Source of the DNA: Rhizobiales bacterium NRL2 | GTDB lineage: Bacteria > Pseudomonadota > Alphaproteobacteria > Minwuiales > Minwuiaceae | NCBI GenBank assembly: GCA_001664005.1 | Contig: CP016093.1 | Location: forward strand, 1,247,001 to 1,311,000 | Direction of reading: 5' to 3' | DNA: 64,000 nucleotides | Shown: positions 6,026-19,612 of the stretch, piece after piece | Layout of the letters: each line of letters starts with the position of its first letter | Numbering within the stretch: the first letter of the stretch is position 1 | Program-made: the position numbers and the translations under genes | Notes under the pieces: model-generated | Databases searched by the model: none | Told to the model about the DNA's origin: nothing | Seen by the model: the letters and a program-made list of their open reading frames with translations, nothing else

Positions 6026-6502
6026 TCAACCGCCGCGGCCGGCCTTCCTCGCGGCGTCGATCCTGTCGCGCCGGGTGACCCGCGCGGTGGCCGAGGCGCG
6101 TATCAGCAGCTTGCCGTCGCCGTCGAACAGCGAACCCTCCAGGAAGGCGACCGACTTGCCCAGGCGCAGCACCTGGCCCTCGGCCTCCATCGGCCCGGGA
6201 TAGCCGGCGTTGAGGAAGCTCACCTTCAGTTCCAGCGTCGGTACGAAGACGGCGAAATCCGCCATCGCCACACAGGCGATGGCCATGGCCTCATCAACCA
6301 TGGCGGTCAGGAAGCCGCCCTGGATGACGCCCAGCGGATTGCAGAAATCCGGCTTCGCCGTATAGGCGATGCGGGCATAGCCGCGATCGGGGTCGACATC
6401 GATCGGTCTGAAACCCAGCAGTTCCGTCGCCGGCGCGAGCGGACGGCGTTCGAGAATCTCCAATACGCGCCGGGCGCGGTCCTGGACGTCGGTCATGGTC
6501 AC
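6026..6502 (-). CDS. PaaI-family hotdog thioesterase
   Basis: A 158-residue hotdog-fold protein. NPLGVIQGGFLTAMVDEAM is the catalytic-helix region; the family HGG is QGG here, and the acidic residue that activates water in PaaI-type enzymes is represented by D-E in MVDEAM. The strand VPTLELKVSFLNAG follows. It is the last gene of a four-gene minus-strand set: the GTG start overlaps the stop of the upstream methyltransferase gene (GTGA), indicating translational coupling. ATG two codons later (6496) is an alternative start. The His-to-Gln change relative to many PaaI proteins may alter activity. Confidence 0.85.
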   Translation of the reverse strand: MTMTDVQDRARRVLEILERRPLAPATELLGFRPIDVDPDRGYARIAYTAKPDFCNPLGVIQGGFLTAMVDEAMAIACVAMADFAVFVPTLELKVSFLNAGYPGPMEAEGQVLRLGKSVAFLEGSLFDGDGKLLIRASATARVTRRDRIDAARKAGRGG

Positions 6503-6990
6503 TCCGTTGCGATGGACAGGTGATAGCGGCCGGCAGCCACCCCGTCGGGCAGGGGCACGGAACGAAGGCGGGAATCCCCGAAGGGCTGGTCGGAGAGCAG
6601 CACGGCGCCCGGACGCATCAGATCGACGACCGCGCCAGCGATGGAACGGGCCAGCGCCAGGCTGGCCGCCTTGTCGCCGGTGCCGATATCGGCATGGACC
6701 AGGGCCGCGGGCTCGCCGATGCGCGCCATGGCGCCGGGCAGTTGCTCGGTGAAGTCGCCCAGAAACAGATCCGCCGCCGGCGGCACGCAGTCCGGCTGGG
6801 CCCTGACCTCGCGTTCGAAGACGAAGATGCGGCGCCCGGGCAGCAGGGCCCGGAGGTGATCGTAGGTCCGGCCATTGCCCAGGCCGAGTTCCAGTGCCGG
6901 CCCCGGCAGGTCCGCGATCATGGCGGCGGCGGCGTCGAGACAGGCGCGCTGCGCCTGCAGCCGCTGGATGAAGGAATCGAGGCGGGACAT
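6499..6990 (-). CDS. small class I SAM-dependent methyltransferase-like protein
   Basis: A 163-residue protein with a Rossmann-type SAM-binding glycine motif, ALELGLGNGRTYDHL (residues 32-46), an acidic end of strand 2 in RRIFVFERE, and a likely strand-4 acidic segment ALVHADIGTGD. It is short for a methyltransferase and seems to lack an obvious substrate-binding cap, so it may be a minimal enzyme or only a SAM/nucleotide-binding protein. It sits 10 bp after the cyclic-nucleotide-binding gene and overlaps the thioesterase gene by 4 bp. The target is unknown. Confidence 0.75.
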   Translation of the reverse strand: MSRLDSFIQRLQAQRACLDAAAAMIADLPGPALELGLGNGRTYDHLRALLPGRRIFVFEREVRAQPDCVPPAADLFLGDFTEQLPGAMARIGEPAALVHADIGTGDKAASLALARSIAGAVVDLMRPGAVLLSDQPFGDSRLRSVPLPDGVAAGRYHLSIATE

Positions 6991-7000
6991 CGGGCGGGAA

Positions 7001-7477
7001 TCAGCCGCCCTGCTGTTCGCGGACTTCGGCGAGTTCCTTCTGCGTCAACTGGAGGTCCCGCGTGGTGCGGTCCAGACGCGCCGCGATCTCACGCATGATC
7101 TCGATCGTCATCTGCGGGAACTCGGCGACCAGGCGGTAGAACAGGTCCGTGGTGATGCGCAGCGTCGTCAGCGTGGTGGTCGCCTTGACGGTCGCCGTGC
7201 GGGGGATATCGCACAGGATCGCGATCTCGCCGAAGAAGCTGTTCTTGTGCAGCTGCGCCACGGTGAGCGGTCCGGCGGGCAGGTTGACGATCACGTCGGC
7301 GTCGCCGTCGACGATCACGTACATGCTGTCGCCGGGTTCGCCCTGCTCGCAGACCACCTGACCCGGCTGGAACACCAGGCGCTCCGAGGTGAAGGCGAGC
7401 AGCTTCAGCTTCGACTGCTCCACTTTCTGGAACATCGGAATCTGCCTGAGCAGTTCGACTTCTTCATTCAGGCTCAT
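7001..7477 (-). CDS. stand-alone cyclic nucleotide-binding domain protein
   Basis: A 158-residue protein consisting of one CRP-like cNMP-binding beta-roll (about residues 12-130) and a helical, charged C-terminal tail predicted to be a coiled coil (residues 130-158). The phosphate-binding cassette FFGEIAILCDIPRTATVKA contains the canonical FGE and the arginine that contacts the cyclic phosphate, so ligand binding is likely intact. There is no DNA-binding helix-turn-helix, so it is not a CRP/FNR transcription factor. It begins 28 bp after the stop of the atypical ABC gene and is probably co-transcribed with it; the natural inference is that it senses cAMP or cGMP for that system. Confidence 0.88.
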   Translation of the reverse strand: MSLNEEVELLRQIPMFQKVEQSKLKLLAFTSERLVFQPGQVVCEQGEPGDSMYVIVDGDADVIVNLPAGPLTVAQLHKNSFFGEIAILCDIPRTATVKATTTLTTLRITTDLFYRLVAEFPQMTIEIMREIAARLDRTTRDLQLTQKELAEVREQQGG

Positions 7478-7505
7478 AGGGTCGGTCCTCCCCGAACGCC
7501 GGTAC

Positions 7506-10232
7506 TCAGGCGGCCTCGTTGTCGATCATCTCGCGCAGCGCGGTGCCGTCCTTGCTCAGTTCCTCGAACGATCCGCTCTCCACGACCTTGCCGCCCTTGA
7601 CGACGATCACGTGGTCGAACCGTTCGGCCATCGCGGCGCGGTGCACGCCCCAGATCAGGCCACCGCTCTCGAAGCGCCGCAGCAGTCCGTCCAGGATGCG
7701 CGCCTGGCTGCTGCTGTCGAGCGACGCCGTCGCCTCCGACAGGATCATCACGTCCGGACGCTTCACGACCGCGCGGGCCAGGGCCAGCCTCTGCCGCTGG
7801 GACGCCGAAAGCCGCGAGCCGCCGATACCGGCGTCGTACTCAAGCCCGACCTCGGCGACCGTGTCGACGATTTCAAGTTCCGCCATCAGCTGACGGATCA
7901 GCGCGCCGACCCGTTCCTGCGCCTGGGCCTGGCCGTAGGCGATCTTCCCGAACAGGATGTTGTCCAGGATGTTCGCGGCGGCATTGTATTCCTCCGGATG
8001 GAAGAAATCGACCGAACCCGCCAGATCGTCGGGCAGGTTCTCGGCGAAGGCCTTGCGCGCCTGCAGGATACGCTCGCGCACCGGTTCGGAGATGATGCCG
8101 AGACGATGCCGCGCCGGGATCAGCTTGAAGGGCAGGGACATCAGGCGGAGCTTCTCCTCCTCCCGCATGTCGTCGATCTGCTCCTTGCTGTACTGGGCCA
8201 GCAGGGCCTGGTACTCGGGCAGGTCATCGGCCGAGATGAAGCTGAACTGCTGGAACAGTTCGTGGTCCGGCGGCAGGTCGGAGAACAGTTCCACCATGGT
8301 CGCCGCAGCCTGATAGCCCATGGCGATCATCTCGCGTTCCATGTCGACCTTGCGCAGCACCTCGCGGATGTATTCGTGCTCGGCCAGGTTCTCGACGTCG
8401 AAGGTGTCGCCGACCGGGGTGCCGAACAGCAGGTTCTCAGCCACCGTGGCGTTGGTGTTGTAGGTTTCGGGATCGTAGCGTTCGATCAGCGCCGCGACCT
8501 CCGGGTCCGACATCCGGTCCTTCAGCGCCGCCCGGGCCTTCAGGATACCCCCGGCGACATCGGGCTGCTTGTCGGGATCGATGCGCCCGCGCAGGCCGAA
8601 CTGGTAGATGTCCTCGTCGAGTCCGACGACCTTCAGCGATTCGATGCCCTCGGCCCGCAGGCTCGCGAGGTCGCTGGCGCCGGCGGCGTCGTAGTCGGTC
8701 CAGTCGGCGGCAGGGTCGAAGTCGAGGTTGCCCGACGCCCGCGCCTCGCGGAGATAGCGCTCGTGCTCGGTCCTTTCCTCGCCCTCATAGGCGTCTTCCG
8801 ACCGCGGCCGGTGGCGCAGGCCGTAGAACAGGTTGTCGCCGAGCTTCATGTTGAAGATCACCGGCGCGCCGTCGACGAAGGATATGCGCCGGCCGGTGAC
8901 GGCTTCGGGCAGGGTCGACAGGTCGTGCTCGCCATAGGCGATGGTCCCGCGGTCGGGATCCTCCAGGCGGGCGAGCAGCTGCAACAGTTCCTCGCGCCCG
9001 GAACCGCCGCCGCCGACCAGCGCGACCCGCTTCGTCAGCGCCGTCGTCGCCGAAAGACCGTCGATCAGGTTGTTGTTCTGCTCGTCGGTCAGGGTAACGC
9101 CGGACAGCTTCATGTCGCCCCGCAGGTGCGGCACCGTCTCCGGCTCGTCCATCAGCCGCTCGTCGGCCATCAGGCCGGCCGGCTGGAACTGTTCGACCAC
9201 CTGATCGTACTTGATGCGGGCGTCCGCCTGGCGCTGGTAGTAGCCCAGCAGCTCCTTCCACGGTGCGCCGATCTCCTTGTGCGCGCTGATCGCGGCGAAC
9301 AGCGTGCCCAGGTCCAGGTCGCCGATGATCACCAGATAGCCGCCGATGGAATAGAACATCACCGGGCCGAGCTGCTGGATGAAGTTGTTCACGAACTTGA
9401 TGACGAACTTCCAGATGTAGATCTGGAGGCGCACCGTGTAGATGCCGTGCAGGTGGTGGGAGAAGTTGGCCAGTTCCAGGTTGGAGGTGTCGTTGGCGTG
9501 GATCTCGGTGACGCCGGTGACGCTCTCGCCGATCTTCTCGGACAGCTTGCGGACGCGGCGCACCCGTTCCTTGCCCATCATGTTCACGCGCTTCTGCAGT
9601 TTCGGGATGATGTAGAACTGCAGCGGGTAGAGCGCCACGGCCGCCAGCGCCAGCTTCCAGTCCGCGATCAGCATGTAGCCCAGCGACATCAGCATGATGC
9701 CGCCCTGCATCACCGGCAGGGAGAAGCACTCGCCGACAAAGCCGCCGAGCGGCTCGACCTCGGCGGTGATCATGGAGATCAGTTCGCCCTGGCTCACCTT
9801 CCGGAAGGTGCGGCGGGGAAAGCGGAGAATGCGGTTGAACAGGCTGTAGCGCAGGCGGCGCAGCATGCGCTCGGCGGTGACGCCGCGATAGACGTTCAAC
9901 GCGTACTTGATGCCCTGCAGCAGCAGGATGTTGGCCAGGAAGACGCCGACAAGGATGAACAGGAAGGTGACCTGATCGAACTCGGGGCCAATGCCGAAGA
10001 CGGCCTCGGGGAAATCGATCGGCACCTTTTCGGTCTTGGTGGCGACCTCGCCGGCGGCGTCGGTCACCTCGCGCTCGACCTTGCGGAAACCCTGGATGCC
10101 CTCGTTGACGATGTTTTCGACAAGGGTATAGCCCAGCAGGGTCAGCGGCATGTTGATCACAGCCAGCGCCACAAGCACGATCTGCTGCTTGTAGCTGTAC
10201 TTCAGAATGAAGCTGAAGACGTTCCGTTCCAT
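7506..10232 (-). CDS. atypical ABC transporter-like protein with degenerate nucleotide-binding site and large insertion
   Basis: 908 residues: an ABC exporter-type membrane domain (about 1-340, several hydrophobic segments, coupling-helix-like arginine-rich loops) fused to a nucleotide-binding domain. The NBD is recognisable but altered: the Walker A region (407-415) reads GGGGSGREE, so the invariant Lys is Arg413 and Ser/Thr is Glu414; the Q-loop region is FVDGAPVIF; the signature is LSASQ (808-812); Walker B (828-839) has Ser832 where the Mg-coordinating Asp should be, but keeps Glu833; the H-loop His864 is present. Between Q-loop and signature there are about 270 extra residues (475-745) carrying two further copies of an [FY]N...[DE]N[LI][LF][FY]G motif. 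I choose ATG 10232 (AGAGGGGAAG ribosome-binding site) over an upstream in-frame start at 10418. Substrate and direction are unknown; poor or no ATP hydrolysis is plausible. Confidence 0.85.
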   Translation of the reverse strand: MERNVFSFILKYSYKQQIVLVALAVINMPLTLLGYTLVENIVNEGIQGFRKVEREVTDAAGEVATKTEKVPIDFPEAVFGIGPEFDQVTFLFILVGVFLANILLLQGIKYALNVYRGVTAERMLRRLRYSLFNRILRFPRRTFRKVSQGELISMITAEVEPLGGFVGECFSLPVMQGGIMLMSLGYMLIADWKLALAAVALYPLQFYIIPKLQKRVNMMGKERVRRVRKLSEKIGESVTGVTEIHANDTSNLELANFSHHLHGIYTVRLQIYIWKFVIKFVNNFIQQLGPVMFYSIGGYLVIIGDLDLGTLFAAISAHKEIGAPWKELLGYYQRQADARIKYDQVVEQFQPAGLMADERLMDEPETVPHLRGDMKLSGVTLTDEQNNNLIDGLSATTALTKRVALVGGGGSGREELLQLLARLEDPDRGTIAYGEHDLSTLPEAVTGRRISFVDGAPVIFNMKLGDNLFYGLRHRPRSEDAYEGEERTEHERYLREARASGNLDFDPAADWTDYDAAGASDLASLRAEGIESLKVVGLDEDIYQFGLRGRIDPDKQPDVAGGILKARAALKDRMSDPEVAALIERYDPETYNTNATVAENLLFGTPVGDTFDVENLAEHEYIREVLRKVDMEREMIAMGYQAAATMVELFSDLPPDHELFQQFSFISADDLPEYQALLAQYSKEQIDDMREEEKLRLMSLPFKLIPARHRLGIISEPVRERILQARKAFAENLPDDLAGSVDFFHPEEYNAAANILDNILFGKIAYGQAQAQERVGALIRQLMAELEIVDTVAEVGLEYDAGIGGSRLSASQRQRLALARAVVKRPDVMILSEATASLDSSSQARILDGLLRRFESGGLIWGVHRAAMAERFDHVIVVKGGKVVESGSFEELSKDGTALREMIDNEAA

Positions 10233-10416
10233 CCGCTTCCCCTCTGATGCGGGCTGAGTGGCCCGCATCCGTACCCCTCCAGGCCGTGCGCGCCACGCAA
10301 CATTAGTTGACCGGACAGGCACCCACAATCTGTGACAGCCGACAATTTGATCATTTACGGTTCTTGCAACGATCTGGCATAGTCCGGCGAAAATCTGGGG
10401 CGTATCGGGGATTCGC

Positions 10417-11634
10417 ATGGCTACTAGCCGTGGATCGCGCGTGCTGATTTACAGTCACGACACTTTCGGGCTGGGTCATCTGCGCAGATGCCGGACGATC
10501 GCGCATTCGCTGGTCGAGAACCACAAGAACCTGTCGGTTCTTATTCTCTCCGGCTCGCCGATCATCGGCAGTTTCGACTTTCGCGCGCGCGTCGACTTCG
10601 TGCGTGTGCCGGGCGTCATCAAGCTGCGCAACGGCGAGTACACCTCGCTGAACCTTCACATGGACATCGAGGACACGCTCGACCTGCGCGCCTCGATCAT
10701 CCGCCACACCGCGGCCAGCTTCGATCCCGACATCTTCATCGTCGACAAGGAGCCGCTGGGCCTGCGCGGTGAGGTCAAGGCGACGCTGGAGATGCTGAAG
10801 AGCCGAGGCACGCGTCTGGTGCTGGGCCTGCGGGACGTCATGGACGAGCCCAAGCTGCTGGCGCCCGAATGGCAGCGCAAGAACGTCATGCCCGCGCTGG
10901 AGGATCTCTACGACGATATCTGGGTCTACGGCCTGCCCCAGATCTGCAATCCGCTCGAAGGGATGGAACTGACGCCGAAGGTGCAGTCCAAGATGGTCTA
11001 TACCGGCTATCTGCCGCGCCGGCCCGGGACGGCCGCGTCCGTCTCCCTGCCGGAGATCACGCAGCGCCCGTTCCTGCTGGTGACCACAGGCGGCGGCGGC
11101 GACGGCGAGGGGCTGATCGACTGGGTGCTGAAAGCCTATGAAAGCGACCCGCTGCTGCCCTATCCGGCGCTGCTGGCCCTGGGGCCGTTCATGCCGCCGG
11201 AACTGCAGGCCAGCTTCCACGAGCGCGCCGCCCGGCTGGAACGCGTCGAGGCAATCACCTTCGATCCGCATTTCGAGAACCTGATGGCCAGCGCCGCCGG
11301 CGTGGTGGCCATGGGTGGCTACAACACCTTCTGCGAGATACTCTCGCTGGACAAGCGCGCCATCATCGTGCCGCGCCGCGTGCCCCGGCTGGAGCAGACG
11401 ATCCGCGCCGAGCGCGCCGCCGAACTCGATCTGGTGCAGATGATTGCCGACGACGGAGAGCGCGATGCCGCGGCCATGGCGGCCGCGCTCAGGCGGATGC
11501 CGCGCCAGAAGCGTCCCTCGGAAGTGGTGGTGCCGGGTCTGCTGGAGGGGCTGACCAACGTCAACCGACTGGCCGAGCCCTGGCTGGTTCGCGCCAAGCC
11601 GCGTCTCAGCCGGGCCGAGCGGGCGGTGGGGTAA
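10417..11634 (+). CDS. MurG/GT28-like glycosyltransferase (COG4671-type)
   Basis: A 405-residue protein of two Rossmann-like halves. The N-terminus LIYSHDTFGLGHLRRC resembles the GxGH acceptor loop of MurG-type GT-B enzymes, and the C-terminal half has the donor-site block GVVAMGGYNTFCEILS followed by VPRRVPRLEQTIRAER, equivalent to the GAxTxxE and following region of GT28 enzymes. It belongs to the same family as the gene at 16083-17204. The sugar donor is unknown. It is transcribed divergently from the atypical ABC gene, with 184 bp between the two starts containing probable promoters for both; a weak match TTTACG-N18-CATAGT lies at 10354-10383. Confidence 0.8.
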   Translation: MATSRGSRVLIYSHDTFGLGHLRRCRTIAHSLVENHKNLSVLILSGSPIIGSFDFRARVDFVRVPGVIKLRNGEYTSLNLHMDIEDTLDLRASIIRHTAASFDPDIFIVDKEPLGLRGEVKATLEMLKSRGTRLVLGLRDVMDEPKLLAPEWQRKNVMPALEDLYDDIWVYGLPQICNPLEGMELTPKVQSKMVYTGYLPRRPGTAASVSLPEITQRPFLLVTTGGGGDGEGLIDWVLKAYESDPLLPYPALLALGPFMPPELQASFHERAARLERVEAITFDPHFENLMASAAGVVAMGGYNTFCEILSLDKRAIIVPRRVPRLEQTIRAERAAELDLVQMIADDGERDAAAMAAALRRMPRQKRPSEVVVPGLLEGLTNVNRLAEPWLVRAKPRLSRAERAVG

Positions 11635-11701: not shown

Positions 11702-12445
11702 ATGGCAATCGACGATTTCATCGAACCTCAGGCCTTCGTGCCCGCCGAACCCGGTCCGGGGCTGGACGCGGCGACGGCGGGCGCGATCAACCGTGACGGC
11801 TATGTCATCCTGCGCGGCCACGTCCCTCACGAAACGCTGGCGGCGATCCGGGCCGATGTCGAGCGGTTGGTGAGCCAGAACCACCGCTCGCAGAAGGATA
11901 TCCATCTCAAGTCCGCGGCGATCGGGAACGCCATGCGCTCGGACATCGTCCAGGGCACGATCGAGCGCTTCAACGGTCCGTCCGAACTGCTGCAGAGCTT
12001 CGCCTTCACCAAGCTGCCGAACGAGGTGCGTACCAAGCACTGGCATCAGGACGGGGTCTACTGGGGGCTTTCGGATTCGCGGGTCTGCTGCCTGTTCGTG
12101 CCCATGACGGCGACGAACGAGGACAATGGCTGCATCTGGTTCGTACCGGGTACCCACAGGCTGGGCCGGATGTACCACTGGGTGGCGACCGACGAGTTCG
12201 GTCTGGAGAACCTGGAATGCGACATGAGCGCCTTCCGCGAGCCGGTGCCGATGATCCTGGAGCCCGGCGATGCGGTGCTGGCGCACACCTACACGGTGCA
12301 CGGCTCCTTCCACAACACCACCGACGAGCCGCGCATCAGCCTCGGGTTCCATTTCCGCCATCGGGACACCGAGCTTCGCTTGCCCGAGCCCTACCGCAAG
12401 GCCCGGGCGGCTCGCCTGGGGCGCAACCCCGCCACCGCCGCCTGA
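11702..12445 (+). CDS. phytanoyl-CoA dioxygenase (PhyH) family Fe(II)/2-oxoglutarate oxygenase
   Basis: A 247-residue double-stranded beta-helix oxygenase. The iron-binding facial triad is visible: His115 and Asp117 in KHWHQDGVYW and a distal His200 in HTYTVHGSFHNTT; Arg211 (EPRISLGFHFR) is placed to bind 2-oxoglutarate. PhyH-family enzymes hydroxylate many small molecules and lipids, so the substrate is open. It begins a tightly packed gene series: its TGA overlaps the ATG of the next methyltransferase gene (TGATG). Context among glycosyltransferases suggests modification of a glycan, lipid or secondary product. Confidence 0.88.
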   Translation: MAIDDFIEPQAFVPAEPGPGLDAATAGAINRDGYVILRGHVPHETLAAIRADVERLVSQNHRSQKDIHLKSAAIGNAMRSDIVQGTIERFNGPSELLQSFAFTKLPNEVRTKHWHQDGVYWGLSDSRVCCLFVPMTATNEDNGCIWFVPGTHRLGRMYHWVATDEFGLENLECDMSAFREPVPMILEPGDAVLAHTYTVHGSFHNTTDEPRISLGFHFRHRDTELRLPEPYRKARAARLGRNPATAA

Positions 12446-13227
12446 TGTCCGCGAAACCGCTGAAAAAGCTTGCGCTGAAGTTCGGCTACGACTTCACCTT
12501 CCGCAAGCTTCCCCAGCACGCACTGCGCAACCGCCAGATCAAGCTGCCGCGCGACGTCGAGCCGGAGTTCGCCGAGATCTTCGCCCGGGTCGGCGATTAC
12601 ACGATGACCACGCCGGACTGCGTCTACGCCCTGTTCAACGCCACGCGTCACATCGTCGGCCTCGGTATCAAGGGCGAGTTCGTGGAATGCGGCGTCTGGA
12701 AGGGCGGCAGCGCCATGACGATCGCGCTCACCCTGAAGCATCTGGGCGTCACCGACCGCCGCATCCGCCTCTACGACACCTTCGCCGGCATGACGAAGCC
12801 GGACCCCATCGACGTCCGCCAGCGCGACGGCTCCGACACGATCGCGCGCTGGGAGATGCAGCAGAAGGCCGATCACAACGAATGGGCCTACGCGCCGCTG
12901 GAGGAAGTGCGGCGCAACATGGCCGCGACCGGCTACCCGGCGGAGATGATCGACTATGTCGAGGGCAAGGTGGAGGACACGATCCCCGACCGCGCGCCGG
13001 CGGAGATTGCGCTGCTCAGGCTGGACACCGACTGGTACCAGTCGACCTATCACGAACTGGTCCATCTCTATCCCAGGCTGACGCCGGGAGGCTTCCTGAT
13101 CATCGACGACTATGGCGCCTATGAGGGCGCGCGGCAGGCGACGGACCGGTATTTCGATGAGCATGGCGGGCGGCCCTTCCTGCACCGCATCGACACGGCG
13201 GCGCGGATCGCCGTCAAGGCCGGCTGA
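12445..13227 (+). CDS. TylF/MycF-like O-methyltransferase
   Basis: A 260-residue SAM-dependent methyltransferase resembling macrocin O-methyltransferase (TylF). Diagnostic segments are GEFVECGVWKGGSAM (SAM-binding loop, residues 72-86), the strand-2 acidic segment IRLYDTFAGMTKPD, and the metal-binding LRLDTDWYQSTYHELV followed by GFLIIDDYGAY; TylF/MycF enzymes use Mg2+ to activate a sugar hydroxyl. The likely role is methylation of a sugar residue made or used by the neighbouring glycosyltransferases. The start codon overlaps the preceding stop by one base. Confidence 0.87.
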   Translation: MSAKPLKKLALKFGYDFTFRKLPQHALRNRQIKLPRDVEPEFAEIFARVGDYTMTTPDCVYALFNATRHIVGLGIKGEFVECGVWKGGSAMTIALTLKHLGVTDRRIRLYDTFAGMTKPDPIDVRQRDGSDTIARWEMQQKADHNEWAYAPLEEVRRNMAATGYPAEMIDYVEGKVEDTIPDRAPAEIALLRLDTDWYQSTYHELVHLYPRLTPGGFLIIDDYGAYEGARQATDRYFDEHGGRPFLHRIDTAARIAVKAG

Positions 13228-13238
13228 GCCGGCGCGCG

Positions 13239-14441
13239 ATGGCGGGGCGCACGGCGTTCATCCTGAAAGGCTATCCGCGGCTGTCGGAGACCTTCATCGC
13301 GCAGGAGATCCGGGCGCTGGAGCGGCGCGGCCTCGCCATCGATATCTGGTCGCTGCGCCATCCGACCGACCAGGCGGTCCATCCGGTCCACGATGAGATC
13401 AAGGCGCCGGTCGCCTATCTGCCCGAGTATCTCAGGGATGAGCCGGAACGGGTCAGGCGCGCCATCGCCGCCTGCCGCGGCCTGCCGGCCTACGGTCAGG
13501 TGCTGAAGCTGTGGGAGCGCGATTTCGCGCGCGACCCGACGACCAACCGTGTACGCCGGCTGGGCCAGGCCTTCGTCATGGCCGCCGAACTGCCGCCGGA
13601 CGTCGCCTGGCTGCACGCGCATTTCCTGCACACGCCGGCGTCGGTCGCGCGATACGCCGCACTGCTGCGGGGTCTGCCCTGGTCGGTCTCCGCCCACGCC
13701 AAGGATATCTGGACCAGCCCCGAATGGGAGAAGCGCGAGAAGCTGGCGGACTGCGCCTGGGCCGTGACCTGCACGGCGGTGAACGCGGACCACCTCGCCG
13801 CGCTGGCGCCCGCGGGCCGGGTGGAACTGGTCTATCACGGCCTCGACCTGGATCGCTTTCCGCCGCCGTCCGCCCCGGCGAAAGCGGCGCCCCCGGTGAT
13901 CCTCTCGGTCGGCCGGGCGGTGCCGAAGAAGGGCTATGGCGATCTGCTCGAAGCCCTGGCGCGGGTCCGGGCGCCCTTCCGCTTCGTCCATATCGGTGGC
14001 GGCGGCGAGATCGGAAAGCTGAAGGCCAGGGCCGCCGAACTCGGCCTCGCCGACCGCGTCGAATGGCGCGGCCCGCAGCCACAGTCGGCCGTGCTGGCCG
14101 CCTGCCGGGAAGCGAGCCTGTTCGCGCTCGCCAGCCGCGTCACCGAGGACGGCGACCGGGATGGGCTGCCCAATGTGATCGTGGAGGCGCAGAGCCAGCA
14201 ACTGCCGGTGGTCGCAACCGCCGTCTCCGCCATTCCGGAACTGATCCGTGACGGGGAGAACGGGCGTCTCGCCGCAGAAGGCGATGTTGCGGGCCTTGCC
14301 GCCGCGATCGAGGAATTGCTCGCCGACCCGGGACGGGCGGAGCGCATGGGCCGCCGGGGCGAGGAGATCGTGCGTCGCGATTTCGACCTGGACCGCTGCA
14401 TCGGCCGGCTGGCGCAGCGTTTCGGACTGGCGGCGGCGTGA
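13239..14441 (+). CDS. glycosyltransferase family 4
   Basis: A 400-residue GT-B fold retaining glycosyltransferase. The N-terminal half begins FILKGYPRLSETFIAQE, typical of colanic-acid and exopolysaccharide GT4 enzymes; the C-terminal half has ILSVGRAVPKKGYGDLLEAL (donor-domain start), a VEWRGPQPQ block, and DGLPNVIVEAQSQQLPVV, which carries the GT4 E-x7-E nucleotide-sugar motif. The start ATG lies 11 bp after the methyltransferase stop. Probable role: addition of one sugar to a surface glycan or glycolipid. Confidence 0.9.
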   Translation: MAGRTAFILKGYPRLSETFIAQEIRALERRGLAIDIWSLRHPTDQAVHPVHDEIKAPVAYLPEYLRDEPERVRRAIAACRGLPAYGQVLKLWERDFARDPTTNRVRRLGQAFVMAAELPPDVAWLHAHFLHTPASVARYAALLRGLPWSVSAHAKDIWTSPEWEKREKLADCAWAVTCTAVNADHLAALAPAGRVELVYHGLDLDRFPPPSAPAKAAPPVILSVGRAVPKKGYGDLLEALARVRAPFRFVHIGGGGEIGKLKARAAELGLADRVEWRGPQPQSAVLAACREASLFALASRVTEDGDRDGLPNVIVEAQSQQLPVVATAVSAIPELIRDGENGRLAAEGDVAGLAAAIEELLADPGRAERMGRRGEEIVRRDFDLDRCIGRLAQRFGLAAA

Positions 14442-15523
14442 TGCGTATTGCCTTCTACGCGCCGCTGAAGCCGCCCGACCATCCGCGTCCTTCGGGGGAC
14501 CGGGCGATGGCGCGGCAGATGATCGCCGCGCTGCGGGCGGCCGGCCACGAGGTCTTCCTGGCCAGCCGGCTGCGTTCCCGTGAGGCGGCGGGCAATGCGG
14601 CGGCGCAGGGCCGCATCGTCTCCCAGGCCCGGCAGGAGGCGGCGATGCTGGCCGCGCGCCTGCTGGAGGATCCGCCGGACCTCTGGTTCACCTATCACGT
14701 CTACTACAAGGCGCCCGACCTGATCGGCCCGACAATCTGCGAGCACCTGTCGATTCCCTATGTCGTGGCCGAGGCGAGCCATTCGGCACGGCGTCTGATT
14801 GGGCCGCACGCGGATTTCGCGCGGGCCGCGCTGGACGCCATCGCGCGCGCCGACGGCGTGCTCTGTCTGACTGCGCGCGACCGGGCCGGACTGGAAGGCC
14901 TCGTCGCGCCGGAGAAGCTGTTCGACCTGACGCCTTTCGCGCCCCTGCGCGCCGGACCGCGGCGGGGGACGGGACGTCTGCCACGGCGGCTGTTGGCCGT
15001 CGGCATGATGCGCCCGGGCGACAAGCTTCACTCCTATCGGCTGCTGGCCCGTTCCCTGGCAGGCGTACGCCATCTGCCCTGGCGGCTGACCGTGGTCGGT
15101 GATGGCGCCGCGGCGCGGCATGTGCGCCAGGCCTTCGCGCCCTATCGGGGCCGGGTGGATTTCGTCGGCGCGCTCGCCTCGGGACGTCTGGCGCAGGTCT
15201 ACCGCCAGCACGATCTGCTGGTCTGGCCGGCCGTCAACGAGGCCTATGGCATGGCCCTGATCGAAGCCTCGGCGCGGGGCCTGCCGGTAATCGCCGGCAA
15301 CGAGGGCGGCGTCTCCGAGGTCGTCCGCCATGGCGTCAACGGTCTGCTGACGCCGCCCCGCGACCCCGTCGCCTTCGGCCGCATCCTGGCGCAGGTCATG
15401 ACCCAGCGTGCGCTATACAGCCGTCTGCGCCAGCGCAGCTGGGGCCATGCCGGCGCACGCCACGGCTTCGCCGCCGCTGCGGCGCGGCTCAACAGCATTC
15501 TGGGCCGGATATGCGCATCCTGA
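14441..15523 (+). CDS. glycosyltransferase family 4
   Basis: A 360-residue second GT4 enzyme. It starts with IAFYAPLKPPDHPRPSGDR, a pattern of GT4 enzymes whose N-terminal loop contacts the acceptor, and has the C-terminal donor motif EAYGMALIEASARGLPVIAG with the two spaced glutamates, then GNEGGVSEVVRHGVNGLL. ATG 14441 overlaps the preceding TGA (TGATG); an in-frame GTG immediately before is unlikely. Its 3' end overlaps the next gene by 13 bp. It is divergent from the preceding GT4, so the two probably add different sugars. Confidence 0.88.
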   Translation: MRIAFYAPLKPPDHPRPSGDRAMARQMIAALRAAGHEVFLASRLRSREAAGNAAAQGRIVSQARQEAAMLAARLLEDPPDLWFTYHVYYKAPDLIGPTICEHLSIPYVVAEASHSARRLIGPHADFARAALDAIARADGVLCLTARDRAGLEGLVAPEKLFDLTPFAPLRAGPRRGTGRLPRRLLAVGMMRPGDKLHSYRLLARSLAGVRHLPWRLTVVGDGAAARHVRQAFAPYRGRVDFVGALASGRLAQVYRQHDLLVWPAVNEAYGMALIEASARGLPVIAGNEGGVSEVVRHGVNGLLTPPRDPVAFGRILAQVMTQRALYSRLRQRSWGHAGARHGFAAAAARLNSILGRICAS

Positions 15524-16086
15524 TGATCCGCCACGGGCGCACGGACTGGAACGCTGCGCTGCGCATCCAGGGCCGGACGGACGTGCCGCTTTCCGCAGAA
15601 GGCCGTCTGGAGCAATGCGGCCGCGCCGTGCCGGCCGATTTCGCCGGCGCCCCGGCCTTTGTCAGCCCGCTGCGCCGCGCCCGCCAGACTGCCGAATTGC
15701 TGGATCTCACAGGCGCTGCCGTCGAACCGCGGCTGACGGAAATGGATTTCGGCGCCTGGGAGGGCCGCACCCACGCCGAGCTGCGGGCCGAGGATCCGGA
15801 AGGGCTGTCGGCGCTCGAGGCGAAGGGGCTGGACATGCGCCCCCCAGGCGGTGAGACCCCGCGCGAGGTCGGCGAACGGCTGCTCGGGTTCCTCGCGGAA
15901 CTGGACGCGGACCGCGCCGTCCTCGTCACCCACAAGGGCGTCATGCGGGCGGCGCTGGCCCGCGCCTGGGGCTGGGACATGACCGCCGATCCGCCGGAGA
16001 AGATCGACTGGTCGGCGGGACAGGTCCTCGATTTCGCGGCCGGCGGGCTGCGGCCCGTCACCATCAACCTGCCGCTCCGGCGATGA
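15511..16086 (+). CDS. histidine phosphatase superfamily protein
   Basis: A 191-residue phosphoglycerate mutase-like phosphatase. The catalytic RHGRTDWN is at residues 7-14, a second basic cluster is FVSPLRRARQTAELL (residues 50-64), an acidic acid/base region is MDFGAWEGRTHAEL, and the distal histidine is in VLVTHKGVMRAAL. Members act on phosphosugars, phospholipids, cofactors or proteins. Because the gene overlaps both neighbouring glycosyltransferase genes, a role in dephosphorylating a pathway sugar-phosphate or lipid intermediate is a reasonable guess, not shown. Confidence 0.88.
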   Translation: MRILMIRHGRTDWNAALRIQGRTDVPLSAEGRLEQCGRAVPADFAGAPAFVSPLRRARQTAELLDLTGAAVEPRLTEMDFGAWEGRTHAELRAEDPEGLSALEAKGLDMRPPGGETPREVGERLLGFLAELDADRAVLVTHKGVMRAALARAWGWDMTADPPEKIDWSAGQVLDFAAGGLRPVTINLPLRR

Positions 16087-17204
16087 CGGACCGGGTCATG
16101 ATCCATGTCCAGCACCTGCTGGGCGTCGGCCATCTGAAGCGCATGGCCATGCTGGCCGGCGCCCTGGCCGAGCGCGGCGCGGCCGTCACCCTGGTTTCCG
16201 GCGGTCCGCCCGCGCCCCAGATCGGGCTGCCGTCCGACGTCGACTTCCGCCAGTTGCCGCCGGTCCGGGCGAAGGACCAGCGGTTCTCCGGCCTGATCGA
16301 TGGGGAGGGGCGGGACGTCGACGACGATTTTCTCGACCGCCGCCGCGACGAACTGCTGGCGATCTTCGAGGAACGCCGGCCCGACATTCTGGTGATCGAA
16401 CTCTTTCCGCTCGGCCGCCGCCAGCTCCGCTTCGAACTGCTGGCGCTGCTGGAGCGGGCGCGGGGACGCTGCCGTACCATCGCCTGCTCGGTCCGGGACA
16501 TCGTCAACCGCCGGCCGCATCGCGAAGCCGAAGCGCTGGACTGGCTGCAGCAGTCTTTCGACCTGCTGCTGGTCCATGGCGACGCGCGCCTGACGCCGAT
16601 CGTCGACAGCGTCGCCGGGATCGAGGCTTTCCGGGGGCGAATCGTGCACACCGGATATCTGGCTGAACCCTTGCCGGCGCCGGCCGGGGAGGGCGATATC
16701 CTGGTCTCGGCCGGCGGCGGCGCGTCCGGGGAGCGGCTATTCGGGGCTGCGGTCGGGGCCTCGGCGCTGCTGCGCGGCGAGGTTCCACAGCGCTGGCGGT
16801 TCCGGCATGGCGCAGGAACCCCATCCGCGCGGTTGAAGGAATGGCGGGCCGTGGCCGCACCGGGTTCGGTCTTCGAGGCGGTGGCGCCGGATTTCCGCGC
16901 CCGTCTGCGCGGGGCGGTGCTTTCGGTGTCCCAACTGGGCTACAACACGGCCGTGGACCTGATGCAGTGCGGAACCCGGGCCGTGGTCGTACCGTTCGAA
17001 GGCGAGGGCGAGACCGAACAGCTGCGCCGGGCGGCGGCGCTGGCGCCCTTCGGGCTGCGCGTGGTGCGTGAATCGGGCCTGGCTGCGCCGGCGCTCGCCG
17101 CCGCCGTCTGGGCGGCGCTGTCGGGCCCGGCGCCGGTCTTCGCGGGCGCCGTCGATCTGGACGGGCTGGCGCGCGCCGCCGAGACCCTTCTGGCGCGCCA
17201 ATGA
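16083..17204 (+). CDS. MurG/GT28-like glycosyltransferase (COG4671-type)
   Basis: A 373-residue homologue of the enzyme at 10417-11634: IHVQHLLGVGHLKRM at the N-terminus parallels SHDTFGLGHLRRC there, a VHTGYL segment divides the halves, and AVLSVSQLGYNTAVDLMQCGTRAVVVPFEGEGETEQ-type donor-site residues lie near 280-310 (SQLGYNT and the E-x-EGETEQ stretch). It overlaps the preceding phosphatase gene by 4 bp (ATGA) and the following gene by 4 bp. The product is likely cytoplasmic or membrane-associated. The donor and acceptor are unknown. Confidence 0.8.
   Translation: MTDRVMIHVQHLLGVGHLKRMAMLAGALAERGAAVTLVSGGPPAPQIGLPSDVDFRQLPPVRAKDQRFSGLIDGEGRDVDDDFLDRRRDELLAIFEERRPDILVIELFPLGRRQLRFELLALLERARGRCRTIACSVRDIVNRRPHREAEALDWLQQSFDLLLVHGDARLTPIVDSVAGIEAFRGRIVHTGYLAEPLPAPAGEGDILVSAGGGASGERLFGAAVGASALLRGEVPQRWRFRHGAGTPSARLKEWRAVAAPGSVFEAVAPDFRARLRGAVLSVSQLGYNTAVDLMQCGTRAVVVPFEGEGETEQLRRAAALAPFGLRVVRESGLAAPALAAAVWAALSGPAPVFAGAVDLDGLARAAETLLARQ

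Positions 17205-17713: not shown

Positions 17714-19608
<1,895 letters not shown>

Positions 19609-19612
<4 letters not shown>

Follow-up and report, generated by a model that had tools for sequence, protein, structure and literature searches.

An alphaproteobacterial family of ABC-exporter-like proteins with altered ATPase motifs, an enlarged NBD and a linked cyclic-nucleotide-binding protein

What might a protein do that has the build of an ABC exporter but not the residues with which such exporters hydrolyse ATP? The question is raised by one gene in the window, by which we mean the whole 64,000-nucleotide stretch of DNA analysed here. The gene lies on the minus strand, with its ATG at 10232 and its stop at 7506, and translates into 908 amino acids. 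A purine-rich GAGGGGAAGCGG precedes this start, and sequence comparison places the start of relatives at the same point. Pfam matches ABC_membrane at residues 86-316 and ABC_tran as two pieces, and nothing besides; there is no N-terminal C39 peptidase domain. The features of the gene on which the argument turns are the following.

7506..10232, minus strand: degenerate ABC-exporter gene, 908 aa (translation; Pfam ABC_membrane and split ABC_tran; AlphaFold)
9153..10232, minus strand: transmembrane domain (TMD), residues 1-360 (Pfam; AlphaFold helices; strong purifying selection)
8991..9014, minus strand: altered Walker A, residues 407-414 (translation; family alignment)
8850..8885, minus strand: Q-loop region, residues 450-461 (translation; family alignment)
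7797..7814, minus strand: altered signature, residues 807-812 (translation; alignment)
7734..7751, minus strand: altered Walker B VMILSE, residues 828-833 (translation; alignment)
7641..7643, minus strand: H-loop His864, retained here and gone from most family members (translation; alignment)

A sequence-only reading of this DNA had already pointed to the altered residues, and the translation bears it out at each of them. Walker A reads 407-GGGGSGRE-414, with Arg413 for the Lys and Glu414 for the Ser/Thr; Walker B reads VMILSEA, with Ser832 for the Asp followed by a retained Glu833; the Q-loop stretch SFVDGAPVIF has Gly where Gln is expected; the signature is RLSASQ, the LSASQ of that reading; and His864 is kept. 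Judged by what a functional ATPase has, Walker A, Walker B, LSGGQ and the Q-loop Gln are all non-canonical and the H-loop His is present. The other exporters of the same genome carry ordinary GKS/T, LSGGQ and DE motifs. The fold itself, an ABC_membrane TMD followed by an ABC_tran-fold NBD, is found by Pfam, AlphaFold and VIA-align alike. The 908-aa protein is thus a type IV exporter by fold and fails the functional definition by its ATPase motifs. On the opposite strand, a 952-codon open frame (window 7389-10247, plus strand) runs antisense to the gene; it probably reflects the codon usage of high-GC DNA, and we do not take it as evidence of a gene.

The altered motifs belong to a family. Relatives at E <= 1e-100 occur in 97 of 289 genomes sampled from the class, and scanning named genomes yielded 80 loci, most of them in Alphaproteobacteria such as Minwuia, Sneathiella, Azospirillum, Tistrella, Inquilinus, Thalassospira, Reyranella, Kiloniella and Nisaea, together with some metagenome bins labelled gamma- or betaproteobacterial. 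Every full-length match in a phylum-wide sample fell within the same class, and plasmid and chromid records add members from Rhizobium, Sinorhizobium and Azospirillum. Identity to the relatives runs from 76% down to about 32%, with the same kind of motif change throughout; the two nearest (L031 and L032, 75-76% identical) have R413-D414 and T832-E833. The only names given to members in public records are "ABC transporter ATP-binding protein" and "ABC transporter transmembrane domain-containing protein", and among the best 25 matches of the exporter-like protein no curated NCBIfam cut-off is reached.

A family alignment, which the sequence-only reading had proposed as the check for lineage-wide substitutions, gives a clear answer: none of 175 aligned members keeps all eight canonical residues, the maximum being six. 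The S/T at 414 is kept in 21/175, the Walker B Asp in 31/175 and the H-loop His in 46/175; these residues, as well as the Q-loop Gln and the second signature Gly, are each missing from most members. Other positions are better preserved, with K or R at 413 in 147/175 and E833 in 93/175. The form [K/R][D/E] is found in Walker A of 113 members, and K together with S/T in 11/175. A 70-member alignment gives a similar account: Lys/Arg at 413 in 68/70, Glu/Asp at 414 in 57/70, and Walker B Asp changed to Asn or Ser in 51/70. A type still more degenerate, f71 (L220-L224), has a divergent TMD, no Walker A Lys/Arg and no signature, and retains the duplicated NBD insertion described below. In a TMD tree whose deep branches are weakly supported, this type falls outside the main clade; the loss of motifs therefore appears to be old, with modest deep support. 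The family is widespread in Alphaproteobacteria, and no sampled member has a complete ATP-hydrolysis site.

Numerous active-site substitutions might suggest a decaying pseudogene or a sequencing artefact. This explanation is scarcely credible: the frame of 908 codons is open, relatives as little as about 32% identical share the same kind of altered motifs, and dN/dS is below 1 in every region, so that family alignment and dN/dS together rule it out. Among the closest relatives, dN/dS is lowest in the TMD (0.06-0.20) and the C-terminal NBD (0.05-0.19), intermediate in the NBD insertion (0.12-0.32) and highest in the Walker A half (0.25-0.55). The gene is under purifying selection, with the P-loop half least constrained; given the values for the Walker A half, simple drift may be at work in part of the NBD.

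The NBD is also enlarged. Between the Q-loop and the signature lies an insertion that is conserved across the family in alignments, and within it two segments resemble one another.

7878..8792, minus strand: conserved insertion of ~300 aa within the NBD, residues 481-785 (family alignments; own AlphaFold model, pLDDT 93)
8316..8564, minus strand: internal repeat copy A, residues 557-639, ...YNTNATVAENLLFG... (HHalign to copy B; column-shuffled controls)
7839..8087, minus strand: internal repeat copy B, residues 716-798, ...YNAAANILDNILFG..., running into the signature (HHalign; column-shuffled controls)

Residues 557-639 match 716-798 with an HHalign probability of 98% and an E of 3e-14, and segments 580-735 and 735-850 score 70, where 30 column-shuffled controls reach at most 16. 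A third copy at the canonical Q-loop/ENI segment (446-472) is suggestive only, with HHalign scores of 30-32 against shuffled maxima of 17-20. The TIxENI segment comes after the Q-loop in ordinary exporters. The repeat bears an ENxLFG motif resembling this segment, and we therefore infer from the sequence that the insertion arose, at least partly, via tandem partial duplication of the helical subdomain of the NBD. For the insertion modelled alone (pLDDT 93), Foldseek gave no significant match. The best PDB matches by VIA-align are mostly ABC NBD segments, weak (Z 3-4, up to 4.2), which by our reading of the residue ranges would be the helical subdomain; we take them as no more than support for the repeat seen in the sequence.

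The AlphaFold model of the 908-aa protein is confident (pLDDT 90.1, pTM 0.85). VIA-align matches it at Z about 26 to PCAT1, TM287/288 and Sav1866, spanning residues 2-908, and the modelled NBD core superposes on 239/239 residues of the ComA NBD at 1.7 A. The confident model and the match to ComA therefore describe the NBD as a folded domain and not as a ruin.

Directly downstream of the exporter-like gene is the gene for a small cyclic-nucleotide-binding protein (cNBD), and a methyltransferase gene follows it.

7001..7477, minus strand: stand-alone cyclic-nucleotide-binding protein, 158 aa (Pfam cNMP_binding, E 6.7e-19)
7193..7231, minus strand: phosphate-binding cassette of the cNBD, residues 83-95, GEIAILCDIPRTA (conservation of Gly83, Glu84 and Arg93)
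6499..6990, minus strand: Methyltransf_17 methyltransferase, third gene of the apparent operon (PF12692; in 62/128 loci)

A cNBD is adjacent to, or fused with, the exporter-like protein in 119 of 129 distinct loci. The cNMP_binding domain is the sole Pfam match of the 158-aa protein, which has no DNA-binding domain by this search. It has the Gly-Glu pair and the Arg of the cassette, and cNMP binding is predicted. Gly83, Glu84 and Arg93 are found in 146, 137 and 146 of 147 stand-alone cNBD sequences (best match per locus, so that a few could belong to different cNBD genes) and in 12, 11 and 12 of 12 fused cNBDs. At the level of sequence, these C-terminal fusions are a Rosetta-stone link to the exporter-like protein, and the linked cNBD suggests that a regulatory element has been added to it. 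The same genome has 13 class III nucleotide-cyclase domains. Since the cNMP-type domain of HetC bound ppGpp and no cAMP (PMC10986499), the ligand of the cNBD may likewise be something other than cAMP.

On the other side of the exporter-like gene, the divergent strand carries a cluster of which several genes recur in related loci.

10417..11634, plus strand: GT28-like glycosyltransferase A, divergent upstream (Glyco_tran_28_C; homologue in 92/129 loci)
13239..14441, plus strand: GT4 glycosyltransferase of the conserved cluster (97 of the 129 loci)
15511..16086, plus strand: histidine phosphatase of the conserved cluster (67 of the 129 loci)
16083..17204, plus strand: GT28-like glycosyltransferase B (homologue of the second GT28-like gene in related loci, 65 of 129)
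17714..19612, plus strand: importer-type tandem-NBD ABC ATPase, Opp/Gsi type (the only ABC ATPase match of the window apart from the exporter-like gene)

As the count for glycosyltransferase A tells, the linkage is conserved and not universal. Glycosyltransferase B had no Pfam or NCBIfam match at the threshold used. In Rhizobium etli the order is an Opp-type peptide importer, three glycosyltransferases, the exporter-like gene and the cNBD, and the order in Sinorhizobium meliloti is alike, including the Opp-type association. Between the GT28-like and GT4 genes of the window (11702-13227) lie genes for a PhyH dioxygenase and a TylF-like methyltransferase; the PhyH is common to close Minwuia-type relatives. 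The minus-strand orientation, the NBD insertion, the cNBD gene and the glycosyltransferase cluster are all additions to the sequence-only reading. Its statement that no second ABC half-transporter is nearby was right, the ATPase at 17714..19612 being importer-type and not a partner half-transporter.

Relatives of the TMD also exist that have no NBD at all. Two TMD-only paralogues of the exporter-like protein are encoded in the same genome, and one of them (L119:6787-7986; own genome C1, about 696,786-697,985) lies beside the copper-resistance genes CopA, CopB and CopI. The second and more distant one (L237:7185-8123), of 312 aa, has an acyl-CoA dehydrogenase-like gene as its neighbour. The association of a TMD-only protein with copper genes recurs, in the same or a similar form, in two other genomes and on a conjugative Sulfitobacter plasmid (L235:5540-6781, L236:5531-6730 and L241:4848-6152, besides L119). 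The neighbours in these copper-resistance clusters are CopA multicopper oxidase, CopB, and CopI or plastocyanin-like proteins, and public records annotate the TMD-only relatives as ABC transporter proteins. Given their place in copper operons, it seems that the TMD of such kin can function with no NBD.

How does the family compare with systems already described? It has the TMD-NBD half-transporter fold in common with homodimeric type IV exporters of the MsbA/Sav1866 type, but Walker A, Walker B, the Q-loop and the signature are altered throughout, and the 908-aa protein has in addition the ~300-aa NBD insertion, with its duplicated helical-subdomain segment, and the cNBD partner. The 908-aa protein stays below the curated cut-off of the TIGR02203 equivalog for the MsbA lipid A flippase, scoring 195.5 bits where 602 are needed. 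With SbmA, an ABC-TMD-like transporter driven by protons (PMC13316013), and with SbmA/BacA (SLiPT) proteins generally, the family shares an exporter-like TMD, would likewise work without ATP hydrolysis, and has TMD-only relatives; SbmA, however, has no NBD, whereas the 908-aa protein keeps a folded, enlarged one, and the NBD core seen by Pfam and VIA-align rules out SbmA/BacA identity. HetC is an ABC exporter with a C39 peptidase, in which both the cNMP domain and the ATPase residue are required (PMC10986499). In HetC-type exporters, too, a cNMP-type domain is attached to an ABC exporter, but the present family has no peptidase domain, has its cNBD at the C-terminus or as a separate protein, and has lost the ATPase motifs; HetC/PCAT-type identity is ruled out by Pfam, which finds no peptidase domain. 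MsbA2 of S. meliloti (SMb21191; a lead from PMC12239276) is also a different gene, since the family member of S. meliloti 2011 maps at 841.7-844.3 kb of pSymB and the msbA2 operon fragment at 938.3 kb (about 938 kb). In the open-access literature, to which the search was confined, we found no description of a family in which both sites are degenerate or a cNBD gene is linked, and nothing on the S. meliloti member, for which tags in the range SMb2127x-2128x were guesses and none is claimed.

Degenerate NBDs are known to function in heterodimers, as in exporters of the TM287/288 type (PMC7756269), and the 908-aa protein could be the degenerate half of such a pair, with the functional partner encoded elsewhere in a genome that does have further exporters with intact motifs. 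The likeness is real, as TM287/288, TAP, CFTR and MRP1 also have non-canonical NBD residues in an intact exporter fold (PMC7756269). These proteins, however, combine a degenerate with a canonical site, whereas a homodimer here would have no canonical site. Neither the window nor the annotated loci of Rhizobium and Sinorhizobium show a canonical partner half-transporter linked to the gene, and the conserved linked partner is the cNBD, so we regard a heterodimer as improbable. It is somewhat easier to imagine, though still unlikely, that the protein transports nothing and is a sensor or scaffold, its ABC fold tethering the cNBD and the glycosyltransferases to the membrane and relaying cyclic-nucleotide signals. 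The conserved linkage to both and the lost ATPase motifs would suit such a role; a strongly conserved TMD, found NBD-less in copper operons, fits transport better. The sequence-only reading went in this direction when it proposed a pseudo-transporter with a structural, sensory or lipid-binding role. Inasmuch as it denies an ordinary ABC pump, that proposal stands, with NBD motifs altered family-wide; a purely structural, sensory or lipid-binding role is not established, and the constrained TMD, the full type IV fold of the model and the stand-alone TMDs fit a working transporter independent of ATP hydrolysis at least as well.

A transporter may still use nucleotide. The acidic residue after Lys/Arg, together with the Walker B Glu, could make a new nucleotide site at which ATP closes the NBDs, either with no hydrolysis or by an unorthodox ATPase. 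The basic residue at 413 in most members, E833 in about half, a P-loop fold intact in the AlphaFold model, and a [K/R][D/E] pair that is a conserved derived motif, unlike random decay, all point this way, and ATP binding or slow unorthodox hydrolysis may occur. Against it are the five canonical residues each lost from most members and the f71-type relatives, without even the Lys/Arg; we consider it possible and rather doubtful.

We think it quite possible, without calling it probable, that the protein is an NBD-dead ABC-fold transporter or flippase, regulated by cNMP and with cargo from the neighbouring glycosyltransferases. The NBD, enlarged through tandem partial duplication of its helical subdomain, would have no ordinary Mg-ATP hydrolysis cycle; its core, still folded, would act as a scaffold and coupling domain, with a conformation set by the adjacent or fused cyclic-nucleotide-binding protein. 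Alternating access of the TMD would most likely still move cargo; an ion or substrate gradient would supply the energy, and cNMP binding would gate transport. The cargo, only guessed from the neighbours, would probably be a glycan, a glycolipid or a similar product of the adjacent glycosyltransferases. More tentatively, we picture a cyclic-nucleotide-gated, ATP-hydrolysis-independent transporter or flippase in which the NBD dimer, presumably of two identical chains, serves as a regulatory clamp to which each monomer contributes an extra helical-subdomain segment, a cNMP-binding partner reads the clamp, and an ion or substrate gradient drives transport.

Degenerate sites are otherwise known from heterodimers whose other site works. 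If the reading as an NBD-dead transporter is true, apparent homodimers without a canonical site would separate the ABC exporter fold, with its alternating access and scaffolding, from ATP hydrolysis. The bridge from primary to secondary transporters that SbmA represents would then extend to proteins still bearing an NBD, and the family would be an example of an NBD taken over by cyclic-nucleotide signalling. With a member on pSymB of Sinorhizobium meliloti, a laboratory strain lends itself directly to deletion and complementation.
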